Assembly (NCBI RefSeq): GCF_051622035.1
Contig: NC_135364.1
Location: 1,879,001 to 1,943,000 of the forward strand
Length of the DNA stretch: 64,000 nucleotides
Source: Arctopsyche grandis
Lineage: Eukaryota > Arthropoda > Insecta > Trichoptera > Hydropsychidae
Reading direction: 5' to 3'
In this document: piece by piece, positions 3,977 to 57,189 of the stretch
Position numbering within the stretch: the first letter of the stretch is position 1
Layout of the letters: the number at the start of each line of letters is the position of its first letter
Program-made: the position numbers and the translations under genes
Notes under the pieces: model-generated
What the model was told of the DNA's origin: nothing
The model's input: the letters and a program-made list of their open reading frames with translations, nothing else
Database searches by the model: none

Positions 3977-4525
<549 letters not shown>

Positions 4526-6842: not shown

Positions 6843-9800
6843 ATGTCGAAATTCAACGGAGAAGTTCCCGAACAACGTGCTAAACTAATTTTAGGCCGAA
6901 TGTTTGACATTTACGAACAAAGTTTGCTGTGTAATATCGATTTGGTAGTCGGCAATAACAGGTTGGTGCATTTCTTGTGTATGATAATACCATTTGCCTA
7001 TAAAGTTGCACTTATTTATATCAAACGAATTGCATTTTTCCAGATTTCAAGTACACAAGTTGATCCTTGTTACGAATAGCGATTTCTTCTTAAGTAGAAT
7101 AAACGATACAACCAGTGAAATAATTTTAGAAGACAGTGACGAGATACTTGCGGAGTCTGTCAAGAAGACGATTAAGTTCTTGTATGTCGGTGAAATTGGT
7201 AAGAATATATGTAGGTGAATAGAAACCATGTGTTTTGAAAACATATATAAACATATCTAAGGTCAAAATTTAATTTCAGACTTGCAACTACATCTAGCTG
7301 TGAACATAATCAAATTCTCCAAAATGATTCAGGTGTGTGAACTCGAAGAGTACTGTTTGGCGTACCTTGAAAAAATAAGAGACAATAAAAATTATATTTT
7401 TATTGAAGATTTTGCCAAACGACATGGATATTTGCAATTACTTGAGCGATCAAAAGTTTATATTGCGAAGAATTATTTAGAGGTACGTCTTAAGTACGCC
7501 TTTATGTTATTGATTTATATGATGTTGTATTTGGTATCATGGATTTTAATATAAACACAAACTTAGCTATAAGATGACCCAAACCAGTCCTAATTTTGTC
7601 CATTTTATAATTTTAATGCGTTTTTTCCCCTCTTGTCAGGCACCTATTAATGTACACATCGCAACTGCGCATTTTACATACATATTTCTACCCTTTTGAA
7701 ACAATTCAATTTCGATCACAAAAAATACTGTAATTTGATATTTGTCAAGTGCTTTTTTTTTTCAAAACAACTACATAGAGCTTAAAAGATTTATATAATG
7801 ATACCACATAAAAACTGGGAAATAACTGTGTTTATCATAATATTATCTAAAAATCTGATTGGTATTGCAGATAATCCAAGAAGATGAATACCTCGATATG
7901 AGTTGTGAACGACTGGGGGAACTTTTACATTCGGATGATTTAAAAATAGCAAGAGAAGAGCAAGCATTTCAAGGATTGAAGATTTGGGTGCAGAAGAATT
8001 ATGAGTCTCGGAAAAAGCATTTGGACACCCTGTTGAAATATATCAGATTACCTTTGTTACCCGTCCAGGTATTTCCTGCTTCATGACAAATTTCATAGAT
8101 AATTCAAATTCGTCTATATTTGTTTATAATTTTCCAATGTGGATTTCTAAATTTTCAGTTTATATTAAATGAAGTGAAACCCCTCTGTTACGATTCATTA
8201 AGTTGTTGTCAAATGCTGTTGGATACATTTGAATACCATCATAATCCTGAAAGAAGACTTCAATTTCTTTTGTTAAATTCGAAACCTCGAAAGTCCTACC
8301 AACAAACTGTGTTAATTGTAGGAGGACAAAATGATAGTGTATTTATCATATTTATTTTCATTTCTTAAAATTACAAGTTTAAGTTTCATTAATAACGTCC
8401 ATTTTGAATTTAAGACTTCAGGTAAAATTGAAATATTCGATGCTAACGATGACAAATGGTCTACATATCATGATCTGGACAGTAAAACTACTAAATTTGG
8501 GGCTGTCGTGTTGAATAACAAACTAATTACTATGGGTGGTGAATTTGGCGGTAAAACCACGAACAAGGTACTATTCGTTCCATTAATAGTTTTTATTTTT
8601 ATTTTAAGATCTAAATCGTATGATTGTACGTATTTAACGCGATCTATCATGCAGATTCCACACATTTGTATTTTGAACAAATAAATAGAGATTTGTCTTT
8701 TCTGACAAGTGTATGTGTATGTTAATGAACATTGACTCGTTATTGTACATGTTACAGTTGAAGTGTACTTTCAGATGTAATATATTCCAACTGGGGTTTT
8801 AGATCATTCATATTCTAATACAATTCAGGTAGTAAATTATATCTCTACAAGCGCAAATACACTTTCAGCAATGTACGCCAGTTGTAATACAACATGCTTT
8901 TACGAATACTTTATAATACAAATATGGTCTCGAATACCGTATTGCGATAGCTCTAAGAATGTGTTCAAAACAAAAATGTGACTTTCCAACTCAATTTACT
9001 AGTCGAGTGACGTTTTCACAAAAACCTAACCTGATACCAACTCATGGTTGAACTGTATTTTCAGTTGTAATATATTTTGACAGTTGGAATGTAATTCGCC
9101 ACATGAATCAACTTGCGTGATTTACAGGGAATATCTTCCAACTAGTCAAAATATAAGTGTAAAACATTAGAAAATATAACAATGTTAGATAAAATGGAGG
9201 TTGCCTTTATCAGAGAGTGGTTACTAATTTTAACTGACAATTGAGGATTCAAACGTCGATTGCCCCGATCAAAAAAAAAAAATATTTTTACGTTTTGCTA
9301 AATTTCACAGGTGTCTTGTTTTGATATCGTCAGAAAGGAAACAACAGAATTGAAAGCGATGCAACAAGAAAGGCGATATTTCGCAGCCACCGTCATCGAT
9401 AACCAAGTTTTCGTCATCGGAGGATTTAATAATAAAGTGATGAATTCCGTGGAAAGGTTATTTTCTTGAGTCAAACTTTAATTTTTCTTACCTTCGATAT
9501 TTAACGCGATTGTCTATTATTTATTTCATTTTTTTTAACCTGGTTGATTTTCTAACGGAAAATTTATATTAATAATTAATAAAAAAATTAAATTTAGCTT
9601 TTTTTTATTAAACTTTATTTAATTTATTAACGTGATTTTCGTGATCTAATTTTTCGTGACCTCATCTTATCTTACAACCCATTGCGATATCCTGCATTTT
9701 GGATACTATCGTACCCTCCCAAGTAAGATTTAACTAGGATTTATTTTAAAGTAGACAATTTATTTTAAATTCAACACTTCATCTTTAAAATCACCGTAAA

Positions 9801-12317
9801 GACAAATGAAAAAACCACGTGAATATTCAAATTTTGTCACTAACTGATAATATTACATTTACAACAATAAATGTTTTGAAAACAACTCCACTATTGCGTA
9901 AAAAAAACGTAAAACATAAATTTCGATAAAACTTTGCACTCAGTATTCTGAATGATCTCGATGATTAAGAATAGAAATAAATAATAAATTATAATGAATA
10001 CTTGATATTAAATTACATAAAATGCAAATAATGATACAGTCACAATGAAATTTTCCGGTTTTCATTTCAGGTATGATTTAGTTACGAATACGTGGACTAA
10101 TGTGGCTCATATGTTGACACCACGTTGTTATCACGCAATAGCAGTAGTAGGGAAAGACATTTATGCCATCGGAGGTTACGACGATAGTTATAATAGAATA
10201 AACACAATGGAAATCTATGATTCACAACAAGATAAATGGACAGCAGCCCCACCAATGAAAGAAAAAAGAAGAGGTTGTGCAGTAAGAATTCATTGTTATA
10301 TTCACGAATCCTACAACTGATCGATTTGTATCAATCAGAATGAAAGAAAAAAAACATGAAACTCTGCAGTGAGAATTCTTTTTACTTTATCTATATTCAC
10401 ATATGTATCTACGTAGTAACAATAGATGAAATTTTGTGATCATGCGAAAAATAAAACTCGAGATTTTGACTGATTCGAACTCAGAATCGATCACTGATCA
10501 CGTTTTTATGATCTACATAAAAAATGTGTGTGTGTGTCTGTTATTCTTAACTCCTATCGAACTGAAACTAAGTATCGGTTACTAAAATTCTAATCGATAT
10601 GATGTAAATTTTTTTCAAACTTTTAAGTTGATCGGAAATGGTACCTCCCCTTATAGGTGTCATTTTTATTAATTCAATTATTTCCTAAACTGTTCACCGA
10701 ATCACACTGAAATTTTTTGTACATACATATGTACATTGTTTAAATATTTTTACCTCAACTGAAATTAGTACTTTTAATCTAGAGGTTCGAGGTTTTTTAT
10801 TTCTCTCTGGGAAAATTTTCGGAGTATTGAATTGAGATTTCAGATCTAGAAGTATAAGCTTAATACCAAGTAATATATAAAATTTGGTGAGCACCCGTCA
10901 ACCGGAATTGGCAGTCTACTCCTGTTCGATTTTTATTTCACTATTTTTTGATCCCTTACACTAGAAAATTCAAGTAAAATCTCTATATCAATGTGATGAA
11001 AATCATCAAATTGAGTAAACCGGAAGTGGGATATTTTCCCCTTAAAAAAGAAAAAAAATTGTCACCACACGATTTTTTCCACATCCCTTAATATATCAGG
11101 TTGAAAATTTATATTCGTTATCTTTATATACTAACATAGAGATGATAAGGTTTTGGTCAGAATTCGTAAGCCGGAAGTAGAATTTTTTTTAAAATAATAT
11201 TTCATTATTTTATTTTGACCTTTTAACCTCTACAAACCCAACTTTTTAATATCGGTTTTAATAATATTCTTTATTTAATTTCTGTTATTTAGACTTATAA
11301 GGATAAATATATATGGGCGAAATTTTTTTTTAATTTCAATTTTGGAAATACAGTATGTTCATGGTTATCTACAAATAGTACCAAGTTGTATGAACTGTTA
11401 TTGTTGATGTTTAATTTTAAAAAATAAACGATCATTTAATTTTTAAAAATAAACCCAGAAAGCAATAAAAAACTTTATGTACATTATAATGTACACTGGG
11501 CATGTAGAAGTTAAATTATTTTTATCTTTTTGATATGTAATGTGTATAATATTTATTAAAAAATCCCGACAACCGAAAGTAGAATTTTTGTCTTGTATAA
11601 GATTCCTTACATTTGCGCTCAATTTGTATCGAAAATACTCTCATAGCCGGTATATGTGAATGTGTATGTACGTTGAATTATCGAATTTTGTTTTTTTATC
11701 CTTATATTCCTCAACACATAAATAATGTCGTGGGTTGGTCACATCCGATTTTTTTTACTAATGAATCCTATAACCGATCAATTTGTATTAATCAGCTTTA
11801 AATACAAACACATAACAGTTAAGTCGTCTTCGCTGAATACCATTTGTTGCAACTTACAGGCTGTCGCAATGGGAGACCACATTTACGCTATTGGAGGTTG
11901 TAATGGATCATCGGATCTTAAATCAGTGGAGCGATTTGACATCAAGTCTCAAACCTGGACGTCGGTGGCCAGTCTTCCTGAACCAAAGCATAGGCATAAT
12001 GCGATTGCTTTCGACGAGAAAATCATTTGCGTTGGTGCGTTTCTCAGTGATTTAAATACAGTACAAATTTATCTCATTTACCGGGTGTTGTGTGATCGTT
12101 TTTAAAAATGGACCGTTTTTTAAACACGAATTAATTGTTACTTTAACGAAAATATTAATCAATGTGTCTTAAAATATTTTCAGGAGGTGAAAATTCAAAA
12201 TCAGTGCTTAAATACGACCCAGGCACAGACAAATGGACAAATCATGGATCAATTTCAGAACCGCGTTTCTATTTTAATTTATTAGTAGCATCTACAAATG
12301 CACATTATAAAGAATGA
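6843..12317 (+). CDS. Kelch-like BTB-BACK-Kelch protein, cluster copy 1 (10 exons, 557 aa)
   Basis: Exons: 6843-6961, 7044-7198, 7280-7482, 7871-8068, 8159-8338, 8415-8567, 9311-9456, 10071-10281, 11860-12034, 12184-12317. All junctions are GT-AG and the joined frame is open. The BTB domain spans about residues 24-115 (CNIDLVVGNNRFQVHKLIL), BACK about 125-230 (SCERLGELL, FQGLKIWV, YIRLPLLP) and six Kelch blades about 275-557 (LITMGG, VFVIGG, DIYAIGG, HIYAIGG, IICVGG). By family it would be a CUL3 ligase substrate adaptor; the target is unknown. Introns 6, 7 and 8 are long. Intron 8 carries a dispersed repeat. The 5' half is almost identical to copy 2 and the 3' half to copy 4, pointing to gene conversion. 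No canonical AATAAA was seen close to the stop. Confidence 0.92.
10290..11720 (+). repeat. Dispersed CCGGAAGT-rich repeat in intron 8 of copy 1
   Basis: This segment contains several CCGGAAGTRG motifs, TATCGAACTGAAAC-like and TCGAACTCAGAATCGATCA blocks. Homologous stretches occur at 30310-30880 with 31343-31530, 33290-33900, 39180-40500, 41210-41340 (reverse), 48190-48890 and 63440-63600 (reverse). Presence outside the kelch introns argues for an old transposable element; no termini or coding region were found. Confidence 0.55.
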
Positions 12318-15777: not shown

Positions 15778-18700
15778 ATGTCGAAATTCAACGGAGAAGT
15801 TCCCGAACAACGTGCTAAACTAATTTTAGGCCGAATGTTTGACATTTACGAACAAAGTTTGCTGTGTAATATCGATTTGGTAGTCGGCAATAACAGGTTG
15901 GTGCATTTCTTGTGTATGGTAATACCATTTGCCTATAAAGTAGCACTTATTTATATCAAACGACTTGAATTTTTCCAGATTTCCAGTGCACAAGTTGATC
16001 CTTGTTACAAATAGCGATTTCTTCTTAAGTAGAATAAATGATACAAGCAGTGAAATCATTTTAGAAGATAGTGACGAGATACTCGCAGAGTCTGTCAAGA
16101 AGACCATTAAGTTTTTTTACTTTGGTGAAATTGGTAAGTATTTAGGTGAATAGGAACCATGTGTTTTTAAAATATTTATATGCCGATGCTCATCTTCTTA
16201 TTTCAGACTTGCAACTACATCTAGCTGTGAACATAATCAAATTCTCGAAAATGATTGAGGCGCGTGAACTCGAAGAATACTGTTTGGCGTACCTTGAAAA
16301 AATAAGAGACAACAAAAATTATATTTTCATTGAAGATTTTGCCAAACAATATGCGTATTTGCAATTACTTGGGCAAACAAAAGCTTATATTTTGGATAAT
16401 TATTTACAAGTACGTCTTATGTACGTTGATGATTTTTATTGCATGTGATGAATACATTGTAAAAATGTGATTTCATGCGACAAAAACAGTAGAAATTTTA
16501 GGTTTTCCAATCAAGTGTTCCACATAAAATTTGATCATTCTCAAAGAGCTCCCATTCGATACTTAACCATTGTTCCATAATGAGTTTTTCTATGTAGTTT
16601 TATTAATTATTCTAAAACCCTTCAAACTCTTATTATTCAAACGATTTATGTTTAATTATCTCTTTTTTCAAGGAAAAAAATCACATAATTAGATAGGGAG
16701 GCTAAAATCAAAGGGTATACCCTTTTTTTTTCAAAACGAAATTACATATGTTCTTCACATTACAAACATACACATATATAATGATAACGATTTTAATACT
16801 ACATACATAAATATATGTAGCACAATCGAGAACATAAAAATATTTGACATAATATTATCTAAAAATCTGATTGATATTGCAGATAATCCAAGAAGATGAA
16901 TTTCTCAATATGAGTTGTGAACGACTGGGTGAACTTTTACAGTCGGAAGATTTAAATGTAGCAAGAGAAGAGCAAGCTTTTCAAGGATTGAAGATTTGGG
17001 TGCAAAAGAACTACGAGTCTCGGAAAAATCATTTAGATACCTTGTTGAAATATATCAGATTACCTTTACTGCCTGTTCAGGTAACTATTTCCTATTTCCC
17101 TATTGATATATTTGGAGCATTTACAAATGTTATAATACATACATATGTAGTATAATTCAAATTCATCAACATACGTATGTACATATATATTATTTTTTTA
17201 TTCTCTAAGCCTAATGTTTATTAATGAATTACAGTTTATATTAGATGAAGTGAAACCACTCTGTTACGATTCATTGCGTTGCTGTCAAATGCTGTTGGAT
17301 ACAATAGAATACCATCACAATCCTGAAAAAAGATCTCGATTATCATCGTTGAATGCAAAACCTCGAAAATGCTGCAAACAAACTATATTAATTATCGGAG
17401 GAGAGCATGATAGAGTATACATCCTATTTATTCAAAAAATTCCCAGTTAAAGTTTCATTAATACCGTTCAATTTGAATTTTAGAATTCGGGTAAAATTGA
17501 ATTTTACAATGCTGACAATGATAAATGGTCTACATATTATGATATAAACAATAAAATTACTTTATTTGAGGCTGTTGTGATGAATAACAAACTGATTACT
17601 ATGGGCGGTCTATTTGATAATAAATCCACGAACAAGGTACCATCACTAATTTTTGGTTCTATACATATTAAAATTTCAGTCATATTTATATTTAGCATAT
17701 CTATCACACATTTTGAGCGATGTGTTTTGACTACATATGTACATATAAATTTGTCTTTTTAAATTGAAGTTTATATTCTTTCAATTAAATATATGTACAT
17801 AATTATTTCTTGTCATTATTTCGTTAGTCAATTATAGTTAGATGTAAAACTTGGACATTAAACGCCAAGTTTCTACACAAAGTCCAATGCACTCAAAGGA
17901 GTATGAAACGCTGTATGCTTGGCATAACGATGAAAGACAGGAAGAGTAAAATGCTGGTGAGAAGTATGACAAGAGTAGTTGATATAGTGGATAGAGTAAA
18001 TAAATTGAAATGGCAATGAACGGGCCACGTGGATAGAAGAATGGACGAAAGGTGGACAAAAGAAGTGCTAGAATGGTACCTGAGAGAATGCAAAAGGGTA
18101 AAAGGAAGATTGCAGGTACAATAGGTAGACGAAATTAGGAAAATGTGTGGGGTGAGATGGATGAGTTGCGCAAAACAGAGACGAGTGGAAGCGTGTCGGA
18201 GAGGATTTCATCCAGCAGTGAATGGTGAATGACTGTAGATGATGATATAGATTGTAGATCCATAAGTGTGAGAACATAAAATGGTCATATTCACAACCAG
18301 ACAGGGTACCAATTTTAGTTGTAGCAATTAATTCTGCTAGACCAAAATAACTTTCCGACCATACTTGATAGTCGATGATTCCAAATGATTCCAACATTAT
18401 ATACGTTGATTGCCAGATCTATAAAAATATTATTTCTACTTTTTGCTAATTTCAGGTGTCTTGCTTTGATCTCGTCACAAAGGAAACAACACAATTGCAA
18501 TCGATGCAAAAAGAAAGGCGATATTTTGCAGCCACTGTCATCGATGACCAAATTTTCGTCATCGGAGGACGCAATGAAAGAAATGGAGCGATGGATTCCG
18601 TGGAAAGGTTATTCACTTATATTTTGACTTATAATATATTTTTTATTTAATTATATTGGATGACGGACATTTGGCCGCATGGAAACTTCAACGACGGACT

Positions 18701-21700
18701 TTTGACAGAAATGACATTAGGCCGAGAATTGAAAATTTCATTTAGCCAAAGTCCATCAGCCAAGTGTCCTTTCTGCCAAATGTCCACGCACGGTATATAT
18801 TATATGTACGTGGTATGGAGCATGACAGATGACGCTGTTCAGGACCACGGTTGAGGTGAAGACCAAGCACGTGCGTTTTCAGTTATGTTGTTTATTAATA
18901 CAATGATACATGTGGTGGTTTGACGACCAACCGCTCGGAGTGCAGGTCTAACTGCTACTCACGGTTACATCTCTGTCCCTTTCATCCCTCACCCCACAAT
19001 CAGTCATAACATACTCTTTCTCAGCCAAATCCCATAAATCAGCCTTTCGTTCAATTCCAACCCTACATGTACAATATTAAATAAAATTATATTATATAAA
19101 TAGGAATAATAAAATAAATATTAATGTTTATAGATCATATTAACCACGAAATGTAAATAATGATAATGAAGTAGCAATTAATTTTTCCGTTTTTCATTTA
19201 AGGTACGATTTGGTTACAAATACGTGGACTAATATGGCTCATATGTTGACACCACGTTGTGGTCACGGAATAACAGTAATAGGGAAAGAAATTTATGCCA
19301 TCGGAGGTTGTGATAATAGTAATAATAAATTAAACACAATGGAAATATATAATACGCAACAAGATGTTTGGAGAGCAGCCCCAAAAATGAATGAAAAAAG
19401 ATATTATTTTGCAGTAAGAATTGTTTTTATTTTTGCTCACAAAGCCTACAACTGATCGTTTTCTATAACACGATTAGCGGATCAGCGCATAAACTATTCA
19501 GCGCAACGACAATCCAGCGCAAAATCAATTTTTTCAATAAGTTTTAAATTGGTTGAAATGCAAGATAATTTAAATCAATGGTCGATCAATACATACATGT
19601 GGGTGGAATTCCTGAATAGATGACGCTATTCAGGACCACGATGGGATGTGGCGGTGGAATTGAAGATCAAACACGTGCGTTTTCAGTCATGTTGTTTATT
19701 AAAACGACACCACGCGGTGGTTTAACGACCAACCGCCCCCAGTGGAAGGTTAACTTCTACTAACTGTAAAATAGCGGTCCTTTCGCGCCCTCTGCCACTT
19801 TTCCATCCCCCCTCTACAATCGGTCGTAACATACCCTTTCTCAGCCATAGCCCATACATCAGCCTTTCGTTCAATCCCAACACTACAACTCGGCCTTTCC
19901 TGACCACAAACCTGCCCTCAGGTTTCTCTCACCTGCCGGGCCATTCCTCAATCATATTACACATAATTTTCAGACATACTTCTCAATAGTCTTCAACATA
20001 CTCCACAATAATCTCAAACTTACTCCACAGTAACCTTAAACATATTTCAGTATCATATCAATTTTTCACGTTTCAATACAATTCAATCTTCAAAAAAAGT
20101 TACACACAGATCATCACAATTAAAGTTACACATAAATCATCACAATTGCAATTTAAAATCATTACAAAAAATACATAGCATTAAAATCAACACCTTCACA
20201 TTGGAAACAAATCACATTTTAAAATCATTACAGGAAATACATAGCATTAAAATTAACACCTTTACATCGGAAACAAATCACATTTTAAAACATCACTAGA
20301 ATTACATTTCAATACAATTATCTCATATTCTTCTAGGCATGTGACCAAATTAAAACATTATTCAACATACCAAACACTCGCCAAAACATGAAAACACTAG
20401 AATAATCAATAAAACATTAACAATATTTCAAATCATAACTACTAACAAAATAAAACAATAATCAAATATCATGTAAGGCTTAACTAAAACCCCTCCGGGT
20501 ACTCCACTTATTCTCTAATTCACTGACACACACTTCACTTCAATCGGCACAACCTAAACACTATCCGATGCCAGTCGCGATTCCACGCGGCTGTCCGATG
20601 ATGTTGTCCGCGATGGACCTCCCGTCGCCCCACGGCTTTCCATATGGTATCTTGCCACATATGAAGTTGACCAATATCGTTCCTGGTTCACCGATATATC
20701 CAAAAACTCCTTTCTTAATCCATGGTCTTATTTTATTTTCCATTAAAGTAACATCAATCTGACTACGACCGAGCTTGAAAGTGAATACATTGTCCTTTGG
20801 TGTTGAAATTTTGACTGGGTCTCTTATTCCTTCTGGTGATTTATCCATATCTTTTTCTTCATGTTTCCCATTTTCTTCGTCTTCATCTTTAGGATTCTTC
20901 GAATGACCATGAGACCCTTTACTGAATTGACCATCGGGCGGTTCATCTTTATTTGAAAACGCCATGTCTCCGTTGTCCCAAAGCCTTCCAATATGCAAAC
21001 CATCACCGTCCATACTTCCATCACCCATGTCCAGGCCTCCATTACCCGTGTCCTCACTTCGATCACTCATGTCTACACCGTCCTCTTCATTATTGGAAAC
21101 GTCTATTCCACATGGTTTGCGATGCTTACTTTTATCATTCTTCATCCTAATTGAATCTGTGGTTGATGATCGATTTTCTGTGTTCGGTCGCACTGAAGAA
21201 TAGTCCAGATGAGCTCGAGACGGCGACGCTGGAGGCTCTAAGGGGGTCCTCACCATCTGACCATGTGACATGTTTGATGTTCCATCAGCCTCGCTTGAAC
21301 AGGAATCGTTGGGTTCTGCATGAGCAGACATCTCTTGTGAAGCCCGTTCTTCTTTTTCCCTCCGCAGACTCTGTTCCAACTTAACCTCGATCGGAACTCG
21401 TGGTTTTGACGTTTTATCGCGTTCCACTTTGATTTTTTCTTGCTCTCCATCCTTCAAGTCCGAATCAGCCCTCCTTACTCCTTCCGCAGCCTTTCTACGA
21501 ATGGCACCGGAGCTGTTACATTGGTCTCTTACCACAGGAACACTTTCACTAGTGATGATGCCGCATCGATGTACGAAGTTCTCGCCGGCGAGGTTGTCTT
21601 CACTGCCTGTGTCGATCAGTGCCGGCGTCCTCGCCTTGGGTCTCCAGCCGCCTCCAGTTGAGGGTGCGGGCACTGCTTTGGCCGTGGCTACGGTTGCGGC

Positions 21701-24643
21701 TGCTTCTTCTGCCTTTACCTTTTCCACCAGCCCTTCGAAGGCGCTCAACTTGTCCCTGAACTCCTTCAAATTGCGGGCACCATGCAGCATCCCCTTCATA
21801 GAAGACCTGCCAGGGATCCCGTCGATGACGTATTCCATGAGGTCGCGATCCTCGATCGAACCCACGCTCGCCATCTCCCGCATCCGGTAAAAGTACTCGT
21901 TGACCGATTCCTCTGACGTTTTCTGCGACTTGGACAGCCTCCTATGGACTGACGCCCCACTCACCATCCGAGCGAACTCCTCCAGTAATGCGCTTTTGAG
22001 TTTCTCCCACGAATAGACCCCATCTTGTATGCGCAGGAACCTCTCGGCCACCCCCTTGACCAGGCGTTTCCCAAACAGCAGCTTTTCCATGCTGCCCCAA
22101 CCTGCCGAGTGTGCGACTTCTTCGATCTGCGCCACCCACTTTTCTACCGGATAGTCGTCGTTTCCGGTGAAAATGGGGACGGCGCCCTCCATGTCTTGGA
22201 AAGTCAGCTTGGCTCGGCTGGCGACTGGCTCTTCTATCGCCCTCTCCCGAACCCCTCTCGACGTCCTACGACCAGATGTCGGCCTCCTCCTCCGATACAT
22301 TGTAGCACGTGGTCTTCAAACTGCCGCCTAATCCCGGACGAGCCCCCAATTGTGGGTGGAATTCCTGAATAGATGACGCTATTCAGGACCACGATGGGAT
22401 GTGGCGGTGGAATTGAAGATCAAACACGTGCGTTTTCAGTCATGTTGTTTATTAAAACGACACCACGCGGTGGTTTAACGACCAACCGCCCCCAGTGGAA
22501 GGTTAACTTCTACTAACTGTAAAATAGCGGTCCTTTCGCGCCCTCTGCCACTTTTCCATCCCCCCTCTACAATCGGTCGTAACATACCCTTTCTCAGCCA
22601 TAGCCCATACATCAGCCTTTCGTTCAATCCCAACACTACATACATACATACGTATACGCGTACATTTTAGATATGAATAGCAGAACCCATGAAGATGGGC
22701 TTGCGGACCTTGGTCTAGAATCCGTTCATACGTAAGATTTTACTCTTTTTAAGAAATATTTTTTGCGGAACTCAGTTGAGAAACCCTGAATACGTAGGAT
22801 TTGAAAACATAATTTTTGGGGAAAAAATCGAAAACCAAAGATTCTTCCATTTTTTATCAAAAGCAAAGTTCATAATGACGATTTGCGAACCTTAGTTTAG
22901 AGACCCTGCATACGTAAAAGTTTGGATAGCTAAAAAACTATTTGAAAAAAAATTCCTGTCCGGTTTAGAAACCCTGCTTGCATAATATTTCAAGGCACAA
23001 AGAATATCAATTAAATTTATTCGCATCTGAACGTTCTTGTGAGCTTTTACAATATGATCTTAATGCTCTTCATGATTGGTCGTTAACCAACTGTTTGCCT
23101 CTTAATGTCTCCAAGTGCAAGGTTATGTGTTACTCCAGATCCAGATCCACCCCCAATCGTACCATTCCATATCTTGTTGGTAACTTTTTATTGAACTGGA
23201 TCGATTCAACTGTTGATCTTGGAGTTGCATTCCAGAGTGACCTAAATTTCTCTGTTCATATCGACTCTGTGTGTTGCTCTGCCTCACGAATGCTTGGGTT
23301 TGTCTTTCGTAATTCTCGACACTACCATAATCCCGCTGTTTTGAGATTGCTGTACAATGCTCTAGTTAGGAGTATCTTGGAATACGCCTCTATGATCTGG
23401 AATCCTTACACTAAGTCTCTATCTGTGAAGCTTGAACTTGTCCAAAGACGATTTCTCAGACTGCTTTATAAGGAGCAATATGGGATTTACCCATACTTAT
23501 TTCCTTCAAAATTCGTCATGGGTATGGTCGGCTACACTTCTCTTGACCACAGGAGGAGTGTTGCCCTCATCAAGTTCTTGTTTTCCATATTTAGAGGCTG
23601 TATCTCCTGTCCGTCTATCCTGGCTGAGTTCGGCCTTCATGCTCCAGAGAGTGTGATATGGACCCGCCATCGTCCCCTTTTTCACACTCCTTTGGCTAGA
23701 ACTGTGGCTTTTAGTTATTCTCCCATTCCTCGCGGCCTCGTTTCTTAAATTCACTGGATGGTGCCATTGACATTTGTCACGTCTCTCTTCATTCTCTGCA
23801 CCTCCTAAGTAATGGAGGTCGCGACCGTTTAGAAAGGTTGAGTTAGTGTTTTTAATTATGATTTCATGTTTTATTTAGTTATCTTTTCCTTATTTAATTT
23901 GTTTATTTAACTTGTATTTTTTCCTTTTGTACTTCTTAATCTTTTTAGCACACTCGTCGCTTTGGAGCAATCTGTTAGACGAGTGTGCTTGATTAATTGA
24001 TTTTGTAAAATAAAATAAAATAAAAATAAAAATTTATGAAATTATCATGTAGATATGGCCGAAAATTTCAATACAGTAATTATTTTCGAAAACGCATTTA
24101 AAACTTGCGCTGATTTGTCGTGCCACCAAGACGAACACATCACAGCAAAGTCGTTTTCGCTAATTACGATTTGTTTCAACTTGCAGGCTGTCGCAATGGG
24201 AAACCATATTTATGCCATTGGAGGCCATTGCGGATTATCGAGTCTTAAATCAGTGGAGCGATTTGACATCAAGTCTCAAACCTGGACGTCGTTGGCCAGT
24301 CTTCCTGAACCAAAGTTTGGGCACCAGGCGATTGCTTTCAACGATAAAATCATCTGCATCGGTGAGTTTCGCAGTCATTTACATTCAATATTAATATATC
24401 GTATTTACTAACCGTTGAATGATAGTTCTGAAAAATGGAACGTTTTATAAATACGAATTATTAGGTAATTTAATGTAAACGTTTTTCGTAATAATTTCAG
24501 GAGGTCATATTTCAAAATCAGTGCTGGAATTCGATCCAGGCACAAAAAAATGGACAGATCTTAGATCAATTTCAGAACTGCATTCCTGTTTTAATTTATT
24601 ATTAGCACCTAAATATCTATGTAAAAAATATAGAAACATGTAA
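15778..24643 (+). CDS. Kelch-like BTB-BACK-Kelch protein, cluster copy 2 (10 exons, 562 aa)
   Basis: Exons: 15778-15896, 15979-16133, 16207-16409, 16883-17080, 17235-17414, 17484-17636, 18456-18607, 19203-19413, 24187-24361, 24501-24643. Junctions are GT-AG and phases match copy 1. The frame is open despite a 4.8-kb intron 8 swollen by an LTR retrotransposon (antisense) and a LINE fragment. Exon 1 is identical to copy 1 at the nucleotide level. BTB, BACK and six Kelch blades are present (LIIGGEHDR, LITMGGLFD, IFVIGGRNE, IYAIGGCDN, IYAIGGHCG). The C-terminus is LLAPKYLCKKYRNM, longer than in other copies. The stop codon TAA overlaps an AATAAA polyadenylation signal at 24642-24647. Intron 6 holds an RTE relic and intron 7 a solo LTR. 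Confidence 0.9.
17845..18260 (+). pseudogene. RTE-clade non-LTR retrotransposon relic (3' end)
   Basis: A decayed frame reads KRCMLGITMKDRKSKMLV, then RVNKLKWQ-stop-TGHVDRRMDERWTKEVLEW, then RWMSCAKQRRVEACRRGFHP, the characteristic C-terminus of RTE/BovB-like reverse transcriptase polyproteins, followed by GATGATGATATAG, resembling the usual short-repeat tail. In-frame stops show it is dead. It lies in intron 6 of kelch copy 2, same strand. Confidence 0.7.
18805..19067 (-). mobile_element. Diverged solo LTR in intron 7 of copy 2
   Basis: Shares GATGACGCTGTTCAGGACCA, CACGTGCGTTTTCAGT, TGTTTATTAA and CAGCCTTTCGTTCAATTCCA with the LTRs at 19598 and 22351, but with many substitutions. It is therefore an older insertion of the same or a sister family, in the same orientation as the full element. 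Exact termini and target duplication are uncertain. Confidence 0.65.
19598..19887 (-). repeat. 3' LTR of the gag-only retrotransposon
   Basis: Direct repeat of 22351-22640. The adjacent interior on the - strand reads GGTCAGGAAAGGCCGAG, a weak polypurine tract candidate. Confidence 0.9.
20561..22300 (-). CDS. Retrotransposon Gag with truncated protease motif and unusual C-terminus (579 aa)
   Basis: Residues about 35-200 resemble a Ty3-type Gag capsid (VPIFTGNDDYPVEKWVAQIE, FLRIQDGVYSWEKLKSALL, SVNEYFYRMREMA, LMEYVIDGIPG). No CCHC zinc knuckle is present. At 227-236 there is ALIDTGSEDN, the active-site loop of a retropepsin, but the rest of the protease is missing. The remaining 330 residues are highly charged (Ser, Glu, Asp, Lys rich) with no domain that I recognise, ending in a glycine-rich tail. 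The gene looks like an internal deletion that fused gag to the first codons of protease and then to other sequence. The product could form particles that carry the element's own RNA if a related element supplies Pol; that is inference. Confidence 0.75.
   Translation of the reverse strand: MYRRRRPTSGRRTSRGVRERAIEEPVASRAKLTFQDMEGAVPIFTGNDDYPVEKWVAQIEEVAHSAGWGSMEKLLFGKRLVKGVAERFLRIQDGVYSWEKLKSALLEEFARMVSGASVHRRLSKSQKTSEESVNEYFYRMREMASVGSIEDRDLMEYVIDGIPGRSSMKGMLHGARNLKEFRDKLSAFEGLVEKVKAEEAAATVATAKAVPAPSTGGGWRPKARTPALIDTGSEDNLAGENFVHRCGIITSESVPVVRDQCNSSGAIRRKAAEGVRRADSDLKDGEQEKIKVERDKTSKPRVPIEVKLEQSLRREKEERASQEMSAHAEPNDSCSSEADGTSNMSHGQMVRTPLEPPASPSRAHLDYSSVRPNTENRSSTTDSIRMKNDKSKHRKPCGIDVSNNEEDGVDMSDRSEDTGNGGLDMGDGSMDGDGLHIGRLWDNGDMAFSNKDEPPDGQFSKGSHGHSKNPKDEDEENGKHEEKDMDKSPEGIRDPVKISTPKDNVFTFKLGRSQIDVTLMENKIRPWIKKGVFGYIGEPGTILVNFICGKIPYGKPWGDGRSIADNIIGQPRGIATGIG
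22331..22348 (-). other. tRNA-Pro primer-binding site
   Basis: On the - strand TGGGGGCTCGTCCGGGAT, 18 bases that match the complement of the tRNA-Pro 3' end including CCA, two bases from the 5' LTR. The same primer is used by murine leukaemia virus; here it belongs to an insect-type LTR element. Confidence 0.85.
22351..22640 (-). repeat. 5' LTR of the gag-only retrotransposon
   Basis: Direct repeat of 19598-19887. Begins (- strand) TGTAGTGTTGGGATTGAACG and ends CACCCACA. Confidence 0.9.
22680..22980. repeat. Short internally repeated segment
   Basis: Four diverged versions of a phrase like GTTTAGAGACCCTGCATACGTAA occur at roughly 90-130-bp spacing. Part is the reverse complement of 12700-12860. 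Nature unknown. Confidence 0.45.
22984..24025 (+). mobile_element. 5'-truncated LINE with reverse transcriptase C-terminus and 3' hairpin tail
   Basis: An open frame from about 22984 to 23748 gives the end of a reverse transcriptase (WSLTNCLPLNVSKCKVMCYS, VDLGVAFQSDLNF, LVRSILEYASMIWNPY), typical of the jockey/CR1 group. The 3' UTR has an inverted repeat GCACACTCGTC...GACGAGTGTGC (23948-23988) and ends in (TAAAA)n. Palm motifs upstream, including the FADD box, are missing, so this is a dead 5'-truncated copy. It lies in intron 8 of kelch copy 2. The hairpin tail is shared with the SINEs at 43-57 kb. Confidence 0.8.
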
Positions 24644-27671: not shown

Positions 27672-30600
27672 ATGTCCAAATTCGATGGAGAAGTTCCCGA
27701 ACTCCATGCAACAGCAATTTCAGGGCGAATGTATGACTTTTACGAACAAAAGATATTGTGTAATATCGATTTGGTAGTCGGCAATAACAAGTTGGTATAT
27801 TTTATTTACATATATGGTAATTGTCTATGAAATATAATAGTACTTAAGTCAATCAAACGACTTGCATTTTATCAGATTTGCAATGCACAAGTTGATCCTT
27901 ATTACGAATAGCGATTTCTTCAAAAGTAGAATAAATGATACAACCACTGAAATCATTTTGGAGGACAGTGACGACATACTCGCGGAGTCTGTCAAAAAGA
28001 CAATTAAGTTTTTCTACTGCGGTGAAATTGGTAAGAATATAGATGAATAGAAACCGTGTGTTTTTAAAACATTTATATATGTACAAACATATCCTATGAC
28101 CAAATTTTCATTTCAGACTTGCAACTACACCAAGTTGTGAACATAGTCAAATTATCCAAAATGATTGAGGCACGTGAACTTGAAAAATACTGTTTGGCGT
28201 ACCTTGAAAAAATAAGAGACAGCAAAAACTTCATTTTCATTGAAGATTTTGCCAAACAATATGGGTATTTGCAATTGCTTGAGCAAACAAAGGCTTATAT
28301 TACGGGGAATTTTTTAAAGGTATGACTTTATATTGTTGATTTCTATGACATCTGATTTTGCAAAGACTACACAAATCAATGCCAATTTTCTAATTCAAAT
28401 GCACATATGTACATTTAACAATTACCCATTTTACATATATACATATTTATTTCTTCCCTCGAGAAAATATTACAATTTAGGTTAACAAAAAGAGCTGAAA
28501 GTTCATTTCAAAATTTAACCATTCTCAAGAAGCCTCCCATTCGACATTAAAACATTGTTCTGTAAATAGTTTTTCTAGTCCTCTTAAGTATTCTAGTATC
28601 CCTCAACCTCCTTTTATTCAAAACGATTAAGGTTCAGTTGTCTTTTCATTCTAGGAAAAAAGTCACATATTAGATACGAAGGGTGAGAAACAAAGACTAA
28701 GCTCTATTGTCAAAAGAAACTTATGTACATGTGTTCACCTCACAAAGTGATAAATCGATGACAAACGATAACATAATGATGTTTTTCATATTGTAATGAT
28801 TGGTATTACAGATAATCCAAGAAGATGAATTCTTAAACATGAGCTGCGAACGACTGGGTGAACTTTTACAGTTGGATGATTTAAATGTAGCAAGAGAAGA
28901 GCAAGTGTTTCAAGGATTGAAGATTTGGGTGCAAAAAAACTTCGAATTTCGGAAAACGCATTTAGATACTCTAATGAAATATATCAGATTACCTTTCTTG
29001 TCCGTTCAGGTATCGATGAGGCGTTAACAAATTTCATAGATAATTTAAATTCATCTACCTATGTATTCATTATTGTCTAATGTAAATGATTCAATTTACA
29101 GTTTATTTTAAATGAAGTGAAGCCGCTGTGTTATGGTTCATTGTCTTGCCGTCAAATGGTATTGGATACGTTGGAATACCATCGTTATTCTGACAACGGA
29201 CTTCAATTATCTACATTAAAACCAAAACCTCGAAAGTATAAAAAGCCAGCTTTGATAATTGCAAGAAGTCATAATTTGGTATGTGTCCTATTTATATTAA
29301 TTTATAAAATTCCAAGTTAAAGTAAAATTACATTTATAACAGTCAATTTGACTTTTAGGTTTCAGATGAAATTGAAATTTACAATGCTGAAGATGATTCA
29401 TGGTCTGTGTATGATGATTTGGACAATGGAACTGTCCAGTTTGGGGCAGTCATCTGGAATAACAAACTGATCACTATGGGTGGTTTAAGTGAACATGAAA
29501 CCATAAATAAGGTACCATTACTACCATTAATAACTTTTAGTTCTATTTTAAGATTTCAATTGTATTCATTGTATTTAACCTGATGTATCACGCAGATTCC
29601 ACACATGGGTCGTTGGTACACGAATATTGGATATGGATATCTATTTTGACCAAATAAATGGAAATTTGTGTTTTTTGTTTATCTTTCAATTAGATGTATA
29701 TATGTATGTACATAATTATTTCTTGTGATTATTTTGTTCAGCGTTACCAGGTTGAATCATTCTCAACTATTAAACATACATAGCTGATGTACATTTATAT
29801 ACATAGATCCAAAATAGTGAAAACATTAGAAAATATTACAGCATGACTAAATATAGTGACATCCATTTTTAGAGAAAGAGTCTTAGTTTTATTTGTAGCA
29901 ATTTAGTCAAGTGATTTATTCCGATAGACCCGAATGACTCTCCGACCAAACTCGAAAGTTCATGATTGCAAAATGATTCCAACGTTCGTTATATGCGAAT
30001 TGGGTTTCATAAAATTGAGGATTTAAACGTTTATTGCCCAGATCCATTCCACTATTTAATTGGTTTTGTTTTTATTAATTTCACAGGTGTTTTGTTTAGA
30101 CCTCTCGACGAAGGAAACAACAGAATTGCAAGCAATGCACAAAAAAAGAAAATATTTTGCAGCCACCATCATCGATGACCAAATATTCGTGCTCGGAGGA
30201 CACGATGAAAAACACAACTCGATGAATTCCGTAGAAAGGTTATTCACTTTTATTTTGACTCACAATTTTTCTAATCGTAGTGAATGAGCCCATATATTTA
30301 TTTTATCTACAATGTTCATAGTAACAATAGATTTTCAAATTTTTTGAACACTTCGTCCTATCGAACTGAAACTTAGCATCGGCTACTGAAATTCTTATTG
30401 ATACGCCGTAATTTTTTTTTAAATTTTTAAGTTGACCGGAAATGGTACCTCCCCTTTTTTTAAGTTTTCGTATTCAATTATCTCCCAAACCACTAATCAA
30501 ATCGAATTGAAAAATAAAATTGAATACTAAAATAATAAAATTTTTAAATTTTACACCCTAATATCACACCTTAATATTTTTAAAATAATTTTTCCTAAAC

Positions 30601-32724
30601 CGGAAGTAGTACTTTTACTCTAGAGAATCGAGGTTTTTTATATTTTTCTCAGAAAGCTTTTAGTTTATTGAACTGAAATTTTATATCTAAAAGTTTAGGC
30701 CTAATACCGAGTTATTAGTGGCAGTTTACTCTTGTTCGATTTTTCTTTCACTATTTGTTTCGACCCCTTAAACATGTGTGCTCTTCACAAAAAAATTCAA
30801 GTATAATTATTGTATCAATGTGATGAAAATAAAAAAAATCACTAATTTTAATAAACTGGAAGTGGGATTTTTTCCTCTTAAGGTCTGACCGCACTATACG
30901 ACAACCGAGCGATCCGACACTTCACAACAGTGTGCGACAATATTAGGTAAACCGCACTTGAACGACAGCGATGCGACACTCTGCAGTAAATTATGTCAAT
31001 CATTCGTTCGATACCTCAGAGCAAAATGAACGCTATTATAGTATAACGAAACGGACGCTATTATAGTATCTTTGATATGCGAGAAACCCAAAAGATTATG
31101 GCTACATGCTATTTCAAAGTCACGATATGAAGAAGGAGAATAATTGTCGCAAGGAAACCCCCCCCCCCCCCACTCAACGAAACCTTGCGTCAAAGTTGGT
31201 CAAAAAGTTAACTTTGACGCAAGGTGTCGTTCTACGTCATGCGACTGTCGCGCAGTGCGATATGTCTCATAAAAACAATATTTGGTCGCGTACTGTTGTG
31301 AAGTGAAGGATCGTTCGGTTGTCGTATAGTGCGGTCAGACCTTTAGAAAGGTCAAAAATGTTGTGCCCACGATTCTGTCCACACCCCTGAATGTATCAAG
31401 TTGAAAATTAATATTTGTATTATTTATATACTAACTTAGAGCTGATAGGGTTTTGGTCAAAATTCGTAAACCGGAAGTAGTATTTTTTTTTAAAACAATA
31501 TTTCATTATTTAATTTTGACCTTGTAGTAAACTAGTAAAGTAGTCGTTCAGTTCAAATCAAAAGTCAAAAGTACGTATTTTCACTTGGGATTTTTTCCCA
31601 CTGTTAATACTATTTTATATTGAGTATTTTCTATTGAAACATGTTTATTGGGATAGTGTTCTGGCCACTCTATTTTTTGTTTTCGTTTAAAAGCGTTAAT
31701 TAGAGGTGTGCTGAATTTTAAATCGGTAAAATTTCGTATTAGTAGAGCACGGATTTGTTTTGTGTACGCTGTACGCACGATTTGCGCACAGCTTACGATA
31801 TCCAGCGATACGATATAAGAACCCATTTCGATATCCAGCATTTTGCATACTGCTTGCACACTCACAAGTAAGATTACGTGTAAGATCAAAATACATGCGT
31901 TGTATTGCATAGATATTAAATCGCAAAATGTTATAAGTGATTTATTACTAAACTTCAGTGCTCATATGAGTTTTTATTAATTTTTCCGTTTTTAATTTCA
32001 GATATAATTTGCTTACGAACACGTGGACTAATAGAGCTCATATGTTGACACCGCGTTGTTTGCACGAAGTGGCAGTCGTAGGAAAAGACATTTATGTCAT
32101 TGGAGGTTGTGAAAATAGTATCTTTGGGATTAACAAAATGGATATATATAACACCCAACTGAATAAATGGACAAGAGCCCCGAGAATGAAATATAATAGA
32201 TATTTTTGTGCAGTAAGAATTTTTTTTTATTCACCAATCTTACTACTGTTCGGTTTCTACAACACAATTAATCGAATTAAAGTCAAACATATCACAGTAA
32301 AGTTGTCTTCGCTGAATACGATTTGTTGTATCTTGCAGGCTGTCGCAATGGGAGACCACATTTACGCTATTGGAGGTCACAATGGAATATCGCTTATTAA
32401 ATCAGTGGAACGATTTGACATCAAATCTCGAGCCTGGACATCATTAGCCAATTTTCCCATACTAAATTACGGGATGAGGGCGATTGCTTTCAACGAGAAA
32501 ATCATTTGCACCGGTGAGTTTCGCAGTCATTTAAATAAAATACTAATTTATCGTATTTAATAGACTCTGTGTTATCGTTCTGAAAAGAGGAACGCTTTAT
32601 AAATATACATATATCGTTTTCTAATTTAATGTAAATATATTTCGTAATAGTTTTAGGACTTGTTGATTCAACATTACTGCTGAAATATGATCCAGATACA
32701 GACGAATGGATTAATCTGGAATGA
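27672..32724 (+). CDS. Kelch-like BTB-BACK-Kelch protein, cluster copy 3 (10 exons, 536 aa, early stop)
   Basis: Exons: 27672-27790, 27876-28030, 28117-28319, 28812-29009, 29102-29278, 29359-29511, 30087-30238, 32002-32212, 32339-32513, 32657-32724. Phases match the other copies. The first exon ends AACAA before GT where the others have AACAG, a weaker donor. The first Kelch blade has lost its Gly-Gly (IIARSHNL instead of IVGGQNDS). Exon 10 ends at a TGA where copies 1 and 4 have TCA, removing about 20 C-terminal residues; the sequence after it is still homologous and open. These signs suggest relaxed constraint or a changed last blade. AATAAA lies at 32837-32842. Intron 8 contains a PIF/Harbinger MITE. 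Confidence 0.85.
30310..30880 (+). repeat. Dispersed CCGGAAGT repeat in intron 8 of copy 3, left part
   Basis: Homologous to 10560-11050 and 39390-39830; continues after the MITE at 31343-31530. Confidence 0.5.
30881..31342 (+). mobile_element. PIF/Harbinger-type MITE
   Basis: About 50-bp inverted ends starting AGGTCTGACCGCACTATACG on both sides, flanked by TTA at 30878-30880 and 31343-31345. The related sequence at about 33466-33480 shows the empty site CCTCTTAGAAAGG, confirming a 3-bp TTA duplication, as in PIF/Harbinger elements. Inside, one frame reads KRLWLHAISKSRYEEGE then stop, resembling the RRRRxWVHPI...R..GE segment of Harbinger transposases, so this is probably a deletion derivative of a coding element. 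The second half has a run of 13 C. Confidence 0.75.
31540..31980. other. Unassigned part of intron 8 of copy 3
   Basis: A 109-codon open frame on the - strand (31581-31910) has no recognisable domain. Its upstream part (GCGATATCCAGC, CAAGTAAGATTACG) resembles intron 7 of copy 1 near 9690-9730, so it is more likely intron-derived than a gene. Confidence 0.35.
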
Positions 32725-35056: not shown

Positions 35057-38000
35057 ATGTGCGAATTCGATGCAGAAATTCCCGATCGACATGCAAAAAA
35101 GATTTTAGGGCGCATGTTCGACATTTACGAAGAAAGTTTGTTGTGTAATATCGATTTGGTAGTCGGCAATAACAGGTTGGTGCATTTCTTGTGTATGGTA
35201 AAACCATTTGCCTATAAAGTTGCACTTATTTATATCAAACGACTTGCATTTTTTCAGATTTCCAGTACACAAGTTGATCCTTGTTACGAATAGCGATTTC
35301 TTCAGAAGTAGAATAAATGATACAACCAGTGAAATTATTTTGGAAGACAGTGACGAAATATTAGCGGAGTCTGTCAAGAAGACCATTCAATTCTTTTACC
35401 TTGGTGAAATTGGTAAGAGCACAGGTGAATAGAAACCGTGTTTTCTTAAAACGTTTATAAACATATCCATGGCAAAATCTCCATTTCAGAATTGCAGCTA
35501 CACCAAGCGGTAAACATTATCAAATTCTCCAAAATGATTCAGATGCGAGAACTCGAAGAATACTGTTTGGCGTACCTCGAAAAAACAACAGACAATAATA
35601 ATTACATTTTTATTGAAGATTTTGCCAAACAACATGGATATTTGCGACTATTCGAGCAAACAAAAGTTTATATTGCGAAGAATTATTTAGAGGTACGTCT
35701 TATGCAGTGGTGTAGTGTATAATAAAATGGAACCAGGACGGTGTTTAATTTGTATGATCCCCCCCCCCCCCTCTTTTTTATTACTTAAAACATATATCTT
35801 AATAGTGGTAGTTCAAATATTTTATTTTTATGATATTTTTTTATATTTTCTAAAAATTTCTTTCCCTGTTGACACAAAACCCGTGTTTGTGTGTCAACAG
35901 TAAGATTTCCGTTAAGCAAAGCAAAATCCACATATGTATGTATGTGGAAAATTTTAACATGTGAATTTAGAGATGTTTTTAGATAAAAGAAGCTCACAAA
36001 TTTCATCAAAACATCTTTTAAGTTGTCTTTTAAATTTTTAATATACTCAGATTACTTTTAGGTTTTGGTCACCAAATGTGCTCAAGTCTGCTCACACTAT
36101 TTAGCATACAAAAATGGAATATTATTTATTTATTTAATAATACATGGCGAAGGCGGCAAAGCCGATAGACTCACGGGGTTTGACTTAATATAAATGATAA
36201 ATTAAAAACAAAAATATTCATAACAATAATAAGAATAAAAAAAGTAAACATGAAAAAAAAATTGACATAAGAGAATATACCAAAAGATAAAAGTTAATAA
36301 AAACATCTGGGACGGTAACATAATAACTACGAGAAAACAAAAATATAGAAAAGATATTGGAAAAGAAGAATTACAAAAATCTTGAAGTTTTAGAAAGACT
36401 TCATTTTCTATTTTCTATTTTCTATTATTCATATTTCTATTTTCATATCAAAGTGCCAGGGTGGCGACCTGCTCCGACCTGGCCCGACTACATCACTGGT
36501 CTTATGTTTGCCTTTATGTGATTGATTTCTATGACATACGATTTAGCATGTTGTATTATGTATCATGGATTTTAATATAGCCACGAAAGATTTTTCGACT
36601 ATAATCATGGTTAAAAGACGACCCAAACCAGTCCCAATGTTTAATTTTAATGCATTTTATATATATATATATTAATGTACATATCGCAACTGCCTATTTT
36701 ATGTACATATTTCTTCCCTCATGAAACTCGCAATTAGACTCGGCAAAAAAAAACTGAAACTTGAAAATTGTCGAGAAATTGCTTTTTTTCAAAAAATCCG
36801 ATTGGTATTGCAGATAATCCAAGAAGATGAATTCCTCAATATGAGTTGTGAACGACTGGGCGAACTTCTACAGTCGGATAATTTAAATGTAGCAAAAGAA
36901 GAGGAAGCTTTTCAAGGATTGAAGATTTGGGTGCAAAAGAACTACGAGTCTCGAAAAAAGCACTTAGATACCCTGCTCAAATATATCAGATTACCTTTGT
37001 TACCTGTCCAGGTATTTCCAACTTCGTGAAATATTTCGTAGGTTATTCAAATTCGTCTATATTTATTTATAATTATTCAATGTGTATTTCTAAATTTTCA
37101 GTTTATATTAAATGAAGTGAAACCACTCTGTTACGATTCATTAAGTTGCTGTCAAATGCTGTTGGATACATTTGAATACCGTCATAATCCTGAAAAAAGA
37201 CTTGGATTCCCTTCGTTAAATTCAAAACCTCGAAAGTGCTGCCAAGAAACTTTGTTAATTGTAGGAGGACAAAATGATAGTGTATTTATCATATTTATTT
37301 TCATTTCTTAAAATTACAAGTTTAAGTTAAGTTCATTAATAACGTCCATTTTGAATTTAAGACTTCAGGTAAAATTGAAATATTCGATGCTAACGATGAC
37401 AAATGGTCTACATATCATGATCTGGACAATAAAACTACTAAATTTGGGGCTGTCGTGTTGAATAACAAACTAATTACTATGGGTGGTGTAACTGGCGGTA
37501 AAACCACGAACAAGGTACTATTCGTTCCATTAATAGTTTTTAGTTCTATTTTAAGATCTAAATATTATCATTGTACGTATTTAACGGCATCTATCATGAA
37601 GATTTCACATTTTTGTGTTTTGAACAAATAAATAGAGATTTGTCTTTTTTTGACAAGTGTATGTGTCTGTTAATGTATACATTGACTCGTTATTGTACAT
37701 GTTACAGTCGAAGTGTATTTTCAGATGTAATATATTCCGACTGGAGTTGTAGATGATTCATATTCGAATACAATTCAGCTAGTAAATTATATCTCTACAA
37801 TCGCAAATGCACTTTCAACAATGTGCGCCAGTTGTAATACAACATGCTTTTACGAATGCTTTATAATACAATAATGCGGTAATATTTGCTAGGTATTATG
37901 AATAAAAGTTAAGAGTGCCGTATTTTGGATAGCTCAAAGATTGTGTTTAAAACAAAAATGTGACTTTCCAACTCAATTTACTAGTCGAGTGACGTTTTCA

Positions 38001-41000: not shown

Positions 41001-41102
41001 GACCCAGGCACAGACAAATGGACAAATCATGGATCAATTTCAGAACCGCGTTTCTATTTTAATTTATTAGTAGCATCTACAAATCTTCATTATAAAGAAT
41101 GA
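35057..41102 (+). CDS. Kelch-like BTB-BACK-Kelch protein, cluster copy 4 (10 exons, 557 aa)
   Basis: Exons: 35057-35175, 35258-35412, 35490-35692, 36814-37011, 37102-37281, 37362-37514, 38292-38437, 38963-39173, 40645-40819, 40969-41102. Same phases and length as copy 1. BTB (CNIDLVVGNNRFPVHKLIL), BACK (SCERLGELLQSDNLNVAKEE) and six Kelch blades (LIVGGQNDS, LITMGGVTG, VFVIGGWNN, IYAIGGHDD, IYAIGGYNR, IICVGG). Exons 5-10 and the introns between them are nearly identical to copy 1, but exons 6-9 differ by many amino-acid changes clustered in the loops. Intron 3 is interrupted by a hAT MITE and intron 7 by a hAT end. AATAAA at 41102-41107 overlaps the stop codon. Confidence 0.92.
35705..36498 (+). 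mobile_element. Non-autonomous hAT element in intron 3 of copy 4
   Basis: Starts CAGTGGTGTAGTGTATAATA and ends GGCCCGACTACATCACTG, with the 8-bp duplication GTCTTATG at 35697-35704 and 36499-36506. The same intron in copy 1 lacks it. A (C)12 tract follows the left end, and the middle (36120-36300) holds an A-rich insert with CATGGCGAAGGCGGCAAAGC, perhaps a nested retroposon tail. No transposase. Same family, inverted, at 45593-46719. Confidence 0.8.
38637..38745 (+). mobile_element. Truncated hAT-like end in intron 7 of copy 4
   Basis: CAGTGGCGGATCAAGTAAAT followed by GGGGGGCCCCAGGCGC interrupts sequence that is continuous in copy 1. No opposite end is visible. Confidence 0.45.
39180..40500 (+). 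repeat. Dispersed CCGGAAGT repeat in intron 8 of copy 4
   Basis: Near-identical to 10380-11720 in copy 1 apart from a short deletion around 39650; this similarity is part of the copy 1/copy 4 block. Confidence 0.6.
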
Positions 41103-56729: not shown

Positions 56730-56912
56730 TTATATACAAATTAAATTTCATCAGGAATAATTGAGCCTTTTTATTTTTTGCTAGCTAAATTAACAGGAAA
56801 GTTAGTCATATTTGTATGTGTAAAACTATCAATACCATATTTTATTTTTATTATTACTAGACGGGAATACCCCAATGCGCCTTCCTAGACAATTAATTAC
56901 AAACAATGCAGT

Positions 56913-57171: not shown

Positions 57172-57189
57172 AGGTGGGAATTAATTAAT

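Follow-up and report, generated by a model that had tools for sequence, protein, structure and literature searches.

Tandem copies of one gene that are nearly identical raise the question of what the few differences between them mean. In the caddisfly Arctopsyche grandis, a sequence-only reading of the window (the whole stretch of DNA analyzed here, 64,000 nt, C10:1,879,001-1,943,000, in an assembly of 475.7 Mb and 189 contigs) had pointed to two copies of a Kelch gene whose ninth exon differs in two short clusters inside near-identical DNA, and had suggested positive selection on target choice or micro-conversion from diverse donors. Our analyses suggest that such tandem, near-identical copies differ mainly at a few predicted target-contact residues, which is probably a sign of selection that has repeatedly altered recognition.

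A tandem array of BTB-BACK-Kelch genes

The window contains five BTB-BACK-Kelch genes on the plus strand, K1 (copy 1; 6843..12317; 557 aa), K2 (copy 2; 15778..24643; 562 aa), K3 (copy 3; 27672..32724; 536 aa), K4 (copy 4; 35057..41102; 557 aa), and K5 (copy 5; 58186..62989; 541 aa), which are members of a larger tandem array. Each has 10 exons, and the exon singled out earlier had been numbered correctly as exon 9. Exon phases match among the five copies, all 45 introns are GT-AG, and the proteins are 536 to 562 aa long. The K1 model comprises exons 1 to 5 at 6843-6961, 7044-7198, 7280-7482, 7871-8068, and 8159-8338 and exons 6 to 10 at 8415-8567, 9311-9456, 10071-10281, 11860-12034, and 12184-12317. 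K3 and K5 have an early stop in exon 10 (32657-32724 and 62913-62989, respectively), which ends before the last strands present in the other copies; these genes are either functional short forms or decaying. A fragment of a further copy, consisting of exons 5 and 6 and closest to K5, lies on the plus strand at 56897..57176.

A further 200 kb of C10, adjoining and near the window, was taken for modeling more copies, and the exon 5 and 6 splice sites of some copies were set by copy-to-copy comparison. Of the 18 array copies modeled in all, 15 are open throughout, counting gene H, whose exon-6 donor is doubtful (not GT in the model). Copy A has four in-frame stops, with its exon-5 donor and exon-8 acceptor unclear in the model; exon 3 of copy G is unclear and carries stops; and exons 1 to 3 and 7 of copy F were not found. 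At the genome level, a Kelch_1 profile search returned at least 150 matches (the best 150 of 1287 first-look candidates scored) and a search with the exon-9 peptide at least 91 at E values up to 1e-6 (150 of 336 candidates scored). The number of Kelch genes is thus large. Among the matches listed, the exon-9 peptide is found on C10, C2, C8, C6, and C9, with fewer or more distant matches on C4, C7, C41, and C188. A more distant BTB-Kelch gene, with exon peptides ∼32 to 57% identical to those of K1 to K5, lies at C188:5001-13500 and also on C41 and C2. On C188 it forms a tandem array with a unit of ∼7.45 kb, two units being 99.9% identical over 1049 bp, and the exon-9 search gave equal-scoring matches on C188 (at least 13), C41 (at least 4), and C2 (at least 6); this distant array of C188, C41, and C2 looks ampliconic.

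K1 combines BTB (39.4 bits; cut-off, 20.5), BACK (82.3 bits; cut-off, 20.9), and Kelch_1 (222.9 bits; cut-off, 20.1) domains in a single protein, the combination that defines the KLHL type. With regard to a six-bladed propeller, K1 has six Gly-Gly positions and aligns, at the level of sequence, over the Kelch domain of KEAP1; K3 and K5 stop before the end. The BTB motif that binds Cul3 is hydrophobic-x-Glu. The BTB-BACK part of K1 aligns with KLHL3 (4hxi) at an E value of 2.6e-26, and the M-S-E of KLHL3 falls on T-S-E in K1, so that K1 retains the Glu of this motif but has Thr where a hydrophobic residue would stand. By-eye inspection of K1 to K5 found no hydrophobic N-terminal stretch. The K1-type proteins are putative Cul3-ligase adaptors.

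Clustered replacements in exon 9 of K1 and K4

Exon 9 of K1 (11860..12034) and its counterpart in K4 (40645..40819), both on the plus strand, have exactly 10 base differences in 175 bp, in the two clusters described by the sequence-only reading and confirmed here base by base (11900, 11905, 11909, 11910, 11915, 11988, 11989, 11992, 11997, and 12000 in K1). The first cluster, with five base and four amino acid differences, occupies the BC loop after the Gly-Gly pair (11899..11916; codons 469 to 474), and the second, with five base differences that yield four amino acid differences and one silent change, the DA loop (11986..12000; codons 498 to 502). As had been claimed, eight codons are replaced (C469Y, G471R, S472F, D474V, K498N, H499N, R500G, and H501Q, from K1 to K4 in copy-1 numbering) and one is silent (N502). 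The 72 bp separating the clusters are identical in the two genes.

The flanking introns are far more alike. Intron 9 (12035..12183) is indeed identical in K1 and K4 (0/149). Intron 8 had been described as differing only at scattered sites, which omits 179 gap columns; it has 33 differences in 1435 aligned bases, of which 26 precede position 10871 and 7 lie in the distal 989 bp (10871..11859). Set against the neighboring intron tract, exon 9 is significantly more divergent (10/175 versus 7/1138; Fisher's exact test, P = 1.2e-5), and in this tract exon divergence is about nine times intron divergence, the opposite of the usual order. Comparison of the 33 nt of codons 469 to 474 and 498 to 502 with the same introns gives P = 1e-12 with limits chosen post hoc; when the loops are instead delimited by where the Gly-Gly pair and the residue equivalent to Arg lie (27 nt), they contain 8 of the 10 differences (P = 4e-6). 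Drift of K1 and K4 as pseudogenes was rejected, their reading frames and splice sites being intact.

Changes map to the predicted substrate pocket

To place the changes on a Kelch fold, we used a list of 21 KEAP1 residues that we take to be its substrate contacts. Six of them are named as Nrf2 contacts in the available text of one report (PMC4668279), and the others, except G603, are met by docked small molecules in the part available of a second (PMC12029559). The Kelch domains were aligned to human KEAP1, by which 20 of the 21 contacts were mapped (N382 was unmappable); the pocket map is this alignment, and the limits of the pocket and opposite-face loops are our own. In exon 9, C469Y corresponds to KEAP1 Y525, D474V to Q530, H499N to S555, and R500G to A556. 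Elsewhere, R452D and G453E align with S508 and G509, Y421H with F478, R358Q and Y359S with N414 and R415, and E328V with R380. Over exons 6 to 9, K1 and K4 differ at 27 residues, and the changes affect 10 of the 15 KEAP1-contact homologues compared with 17 of the 212 other residues (P = 2e-7). Eighteen of the 27 fall on the 40 pocket-loop residues (P = 1e-9) and nine lie outside the pocket loops. The proposal that the changes occupy target-contact segments after the Gly-Gly pair and before the next strand is supported by the alignment, which places them in the BC and DA loops of the predicted substrate pocket. K1 was rejected as a KEAP1 orthologue: across the 20 contacts mapped, the two proteins agree at a single residue, R427 of K1 (KEAP1 R483).

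Contact homologues evolve fastest among 15 array genes

The same comparison was extended from the five window copies to more copies of C10, using a Kelch alignment of 16 genes (A and F were left out; G and H were kept). Entropy and codon models used 15 of these, which are not independent of one another, with C dropped as a near-duplicate of B and, for entropy, columns with more than four gaps excluded. Mean entropy was 2.21 bits at the 20 contact homologues and 1.76 bits in 53 pocket-loop columns, compared with 0.60 bits in 63 opposite-face columns and 0.63 bits in the other 177. All seven of the Kelch positions that vary most among the 15 genes are contact homologues. Position 474 has ten residue types among 16 genes, with the DNA on either side little changed.

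Codon models were fitted with our own scripts rather than PAML, with branch lengths fixed after M0 and naive posteriors (NEB). On one tree, ω was 3.76 at contacts and 0.63 elsewhere, and fixing the contacts at ω = 1 cost 2ΔlnL of 139; with the loops as classes, ω was 2.15 in pocket loops, 0.44 in opposite-face loops, and 0.53 in the core. M8 was favored over M7 for the Kelch domain (2ΔlnL, 162), with 14% of sites at ω = 3.4; of the 22 sites with a posterior of >0.95, 20 belong to pocket loops, and 15 correspond to KEAP1 contacts. When each exon was given its own tree, contact ω was 3.63, whereas 40 randomly drawn sets of as many sites all stayed at or below 1.28. When the synonymous rate was also left free, contact ω was 2.07 (P = 0.003) and that of the wider pocket-loop set 1.37 (P = 0.04). 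The synonymous rate itself was raised 1.8-fold at contacts and 1.7-fold in pocket loops, a sign of conversion, of changes spanning several bases, or of a poorly fitting model.

Mean ω was 0.44 in BTB-BACK (a codon model of 16 genes, F and G left out) versus 0.73 in Kelch. This BTB-BACK control gave a small M8 signal (2ΔlnL, 21.4; P = 2e-5; three sites), from which it follows that recombination or weak selection moves such site tests, and recombination among copies can inflate them. For 7 introns that are near-identical within a gene pair (4 pairs in all), changes in the adjoining exons were counted by codon: there were 24 amino acid and 0 silent changes in pocket codons and 22 and 14, respectively, in other codons; without K1-K4, the counts were 17/0 and 21/13. 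Intron pairs with fewer than 100 aligned bases, more than 2% difference, or very unequal length were excluded, which removed K1-I intron 7 and K1-K4 intron 8. The J-K pair supplies 11 of the 24 pocket changes, its exons 8 and 9 being less alike than their short intron, and the B-C pair contributes three amino acid changes in exons 6 to 9, one of them in a pocket codon.

Taken together, dN/dS exceeds 1 at the contact homologues, in the predicted substrate-binding part of the protein, and not in the putative Cullin-binding part (BTB-BACK, 0.44, with its weak M8 signal). Silent and intron divergence do not equal amino acid divergence, and the changed sites are not scattered over buried positions. 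Together with the clustering of changes at contact homologues, these sequence comparisons support the earlier suggestion of positive selection on target choice.

Gene conversion and the origin of the loop differences

Near-identity is distributed among the copies as a mosaic. Between K1 and K4, dS is 0.066 in the Kelch half versus 0.383 in the BTB-BACK half, and each half yields a different best tree. Intron 7 of K1 is nearly identical to intron 7 of gene I (5/614), intron 6 of K4 to intron 6 of I (12/776), and genes B and C are nearly identical from intron 5 onward. This pattern implies that exon- and intron-sized segments move between copies, as under gene conversion, and the genes are mosaics because their background is homogenized by this process. 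In B (C10:1810477-1815268) and C (C10:1818993-1823988), the near-identity runs from intron 5 to the 3′ flank, and exon 5 differs at 18 of 180 bases. Exons 6 to 10 of this pair have only four amino acid differences, two of them at the residue after Gly-Gly; the sole exon-7 and the sole exon-10 difference each alter that residue.

We consider it most probable (about 0.78) that these are tandem KLHL-type paralogues in which purifying selection and gene conversion have kept the BTB-BACK half and the propeller frame alike, while the pocket-lining residues of the BC and DA loops have been under diversifying positive selection. A possible though less probable history is that the loop differences predate the similarity around them: the flanks would have been homogenized recently, conversion tracts covering a loop would have been removed by selection, and old loop islands would have survived. 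Selection for different pockets would still be required, but fresh adaptive substitutions would not. The evident conversion of exon- and intron-sized segments, the unequal K1-K4 dS and discordant trees of the two halves, and the raised synonymous change at contacts are in keeping with such a history, as is the occurrence of several K4 loop codons in gene I or other genes. It demands, however, that conversion tracts end within a few bases of each loop, because the 72 bp between the exon-9 clusters are identical, and the restriction of N502 to K1 and K4 among 16 aligned genes suggests a single recent common loop. An unlikely source of the differences, in our judgment, is the copying of short loop cassettes from other paralogues, with new combinations favored or tolerated by selection. 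Genes I and K, ∼220 kb apart, have a common exon-8 BC-loop block, and in the exon-9 DA loop N-x-G-Q is common to K4, I, J, M, and N and K-x-R-H to K1 and H. No close donor was found in the assembly: the DA-loop 24-mers of K1 and K4 have no second match within 2 mismatches, the BC-loop 30-mer of K4 has none within 3, and that of K1 has two other matches, on C2 and C10, at 3 mismatches each. Donors could have been lost, be unassembled, or be more divergent. The idea that an entire loop was copied from a close donor was set aside, given no match within 2 to 3 mismatches for three loops and two 3-mismatch matches for the fourth. Conversion is evident for exon- and intron-sized segments; micro-conversion from diverse donors, the other option of the earlier proposal, is possible but unlikely. 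Point change and shuffling may both be at work in the loops, and selection on the pocket is needed whether they change by mutation or by shuffling.

That exposed loops simply drift freely under relaxed constraint is very improbable. The loops do lie at the surface, and under a free synonymous rate ω of the wider pocket set exceeds 1 by just a modest margin, but loops of the opposite face, also exposed, evolve slowly (ω, 0.44 to 0.46), by which exposure alone was rejected; the contacts exceed 1 even with that rate free (P = 0.003), and introns beside changed loops are nearly unchanged. An artifact of assembly, paralogue collapse, or model choice seems hardly credible. The array is repetitive, the codon scripts are our own, and recombination is present, but the raw difference counts are free of any model and the copies are neighbors on the same contig, each with flanks of its own. 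An assembly or haplotype origin for the K1-K4 difference was rejected, the two genes being separated by 28.8 kb of a single contig and having further members of the array around them.

A proposed mechanism and known counterparts

Under diversifying selection on the pocket, the BTB-BACK half and propeller frame would be common to the array and each copy would display a different pocket. If KEAP1 and KLHL20 are a guide (available text of PMC4668279 and PMC6720452), alteration of the pocket should change which peptide it binds, and changed pocket residues would thereby change the set of proteins bound and degraded. The selecting force could be a moving target, such as proteins of intracellular parasites or partners in germ-line genetic conflict. 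More tentatively, and with the odds against it, the array may be a germline repertoire of intracellular recognition proteins, in which one ligase-docking half is joined to many pockets, exchangeable by conversion and diversified at the contacts, that destroy foreign or selfish proteins. Because its pockets vary while the frame is common, the array is a natural set from which to learn how Kelch pockets choose their targets, and it points to evolutionary conflict acting via protein degradation.

The nearest known case is, by analogy, that of the nematode F-box and MATH-BTB adaptors, for which positive selection is described in substrate-binding but not Cullin-binding domains (Thomas 2006, as given in the available text of PMC4334554). 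Like the caddisfly array, these are large families of substrate adaptors with selection in the substrate-binding part; as far as that text goes, the caddisfly differs in having a Kelch propeller, in belonging to another phylum, and in that its sites map to known contacts of the fold. The BTB-BACK-Kelch layout and the BC/DA-loop pocket are those of KEAP1, KLHL3, KLHL20, and other KLHL proteins (PMC4668279, PMC6720452, PMC6650413, and PMC10146909, in the parts available). These sources describe a conserved patch at the pocket of KEAP1, KLHL2, KLHL3, KLHL12, and K13 (PMC6650413) and, for any one KLHL protein, conservation of its loops (PMC10146909), whereas the pocket loops are the fastest part among close K1-type paralogues.

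The nearest case for the combination of tandem paralogues, conserved introns, and diversified coding sequence is that of the Hessian fly SSSGP effector genes, where conserved introns and flanks around diversified coding parts are ascribed, in the available text, to positive selection and homogenization (PMC2955719). SSSGPs are there small secreted salivary proteins, unlike the large BTB-BACK-Kelch products of K1 to K5, in which no signal peptide was evident by eye. An expanded BTB-BACK-Kelch set in an insect is also known from the termite Zootermopsis nevadensis, with a KLHL10 expansion to 37 such genes versus 10 in Macrotermes natalensis; the available text reports no pocket selection there (PMC4348803). 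Within a partial coverage of the literature, we saw no description of a tandem animal family whose Kelch pocket residues are under diversifying selection.

Other features of the window and genome

Intron 8 of K2 carries two identical 290-bp direct repeats, 2753 bp apart (19598-22640), which enclose a frame on the minus strand (20564-22315) whose gag-like match is weak and falls short of the Pfam cut-off; near-copies of the repeat occur in inverted orientation at ∼3961-4275. On C1, at ∼36084329-36085669, frames resembling ND2, COX1, and COX2 are open when read with the invertebrate mitochondrial code, inside a chromosome-scale contig; they represent either mitochondrial DNA copied into the nucleus or a misjoin. 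A 718-aa open frame at 1010-3163 with DUF4371 and hAT dimerization domains is a hAT-type transposase, and directly downstream of K4, at 41985-42338, is a palindrome with 167-bp arms, 97% complementary and 20 bp apart.
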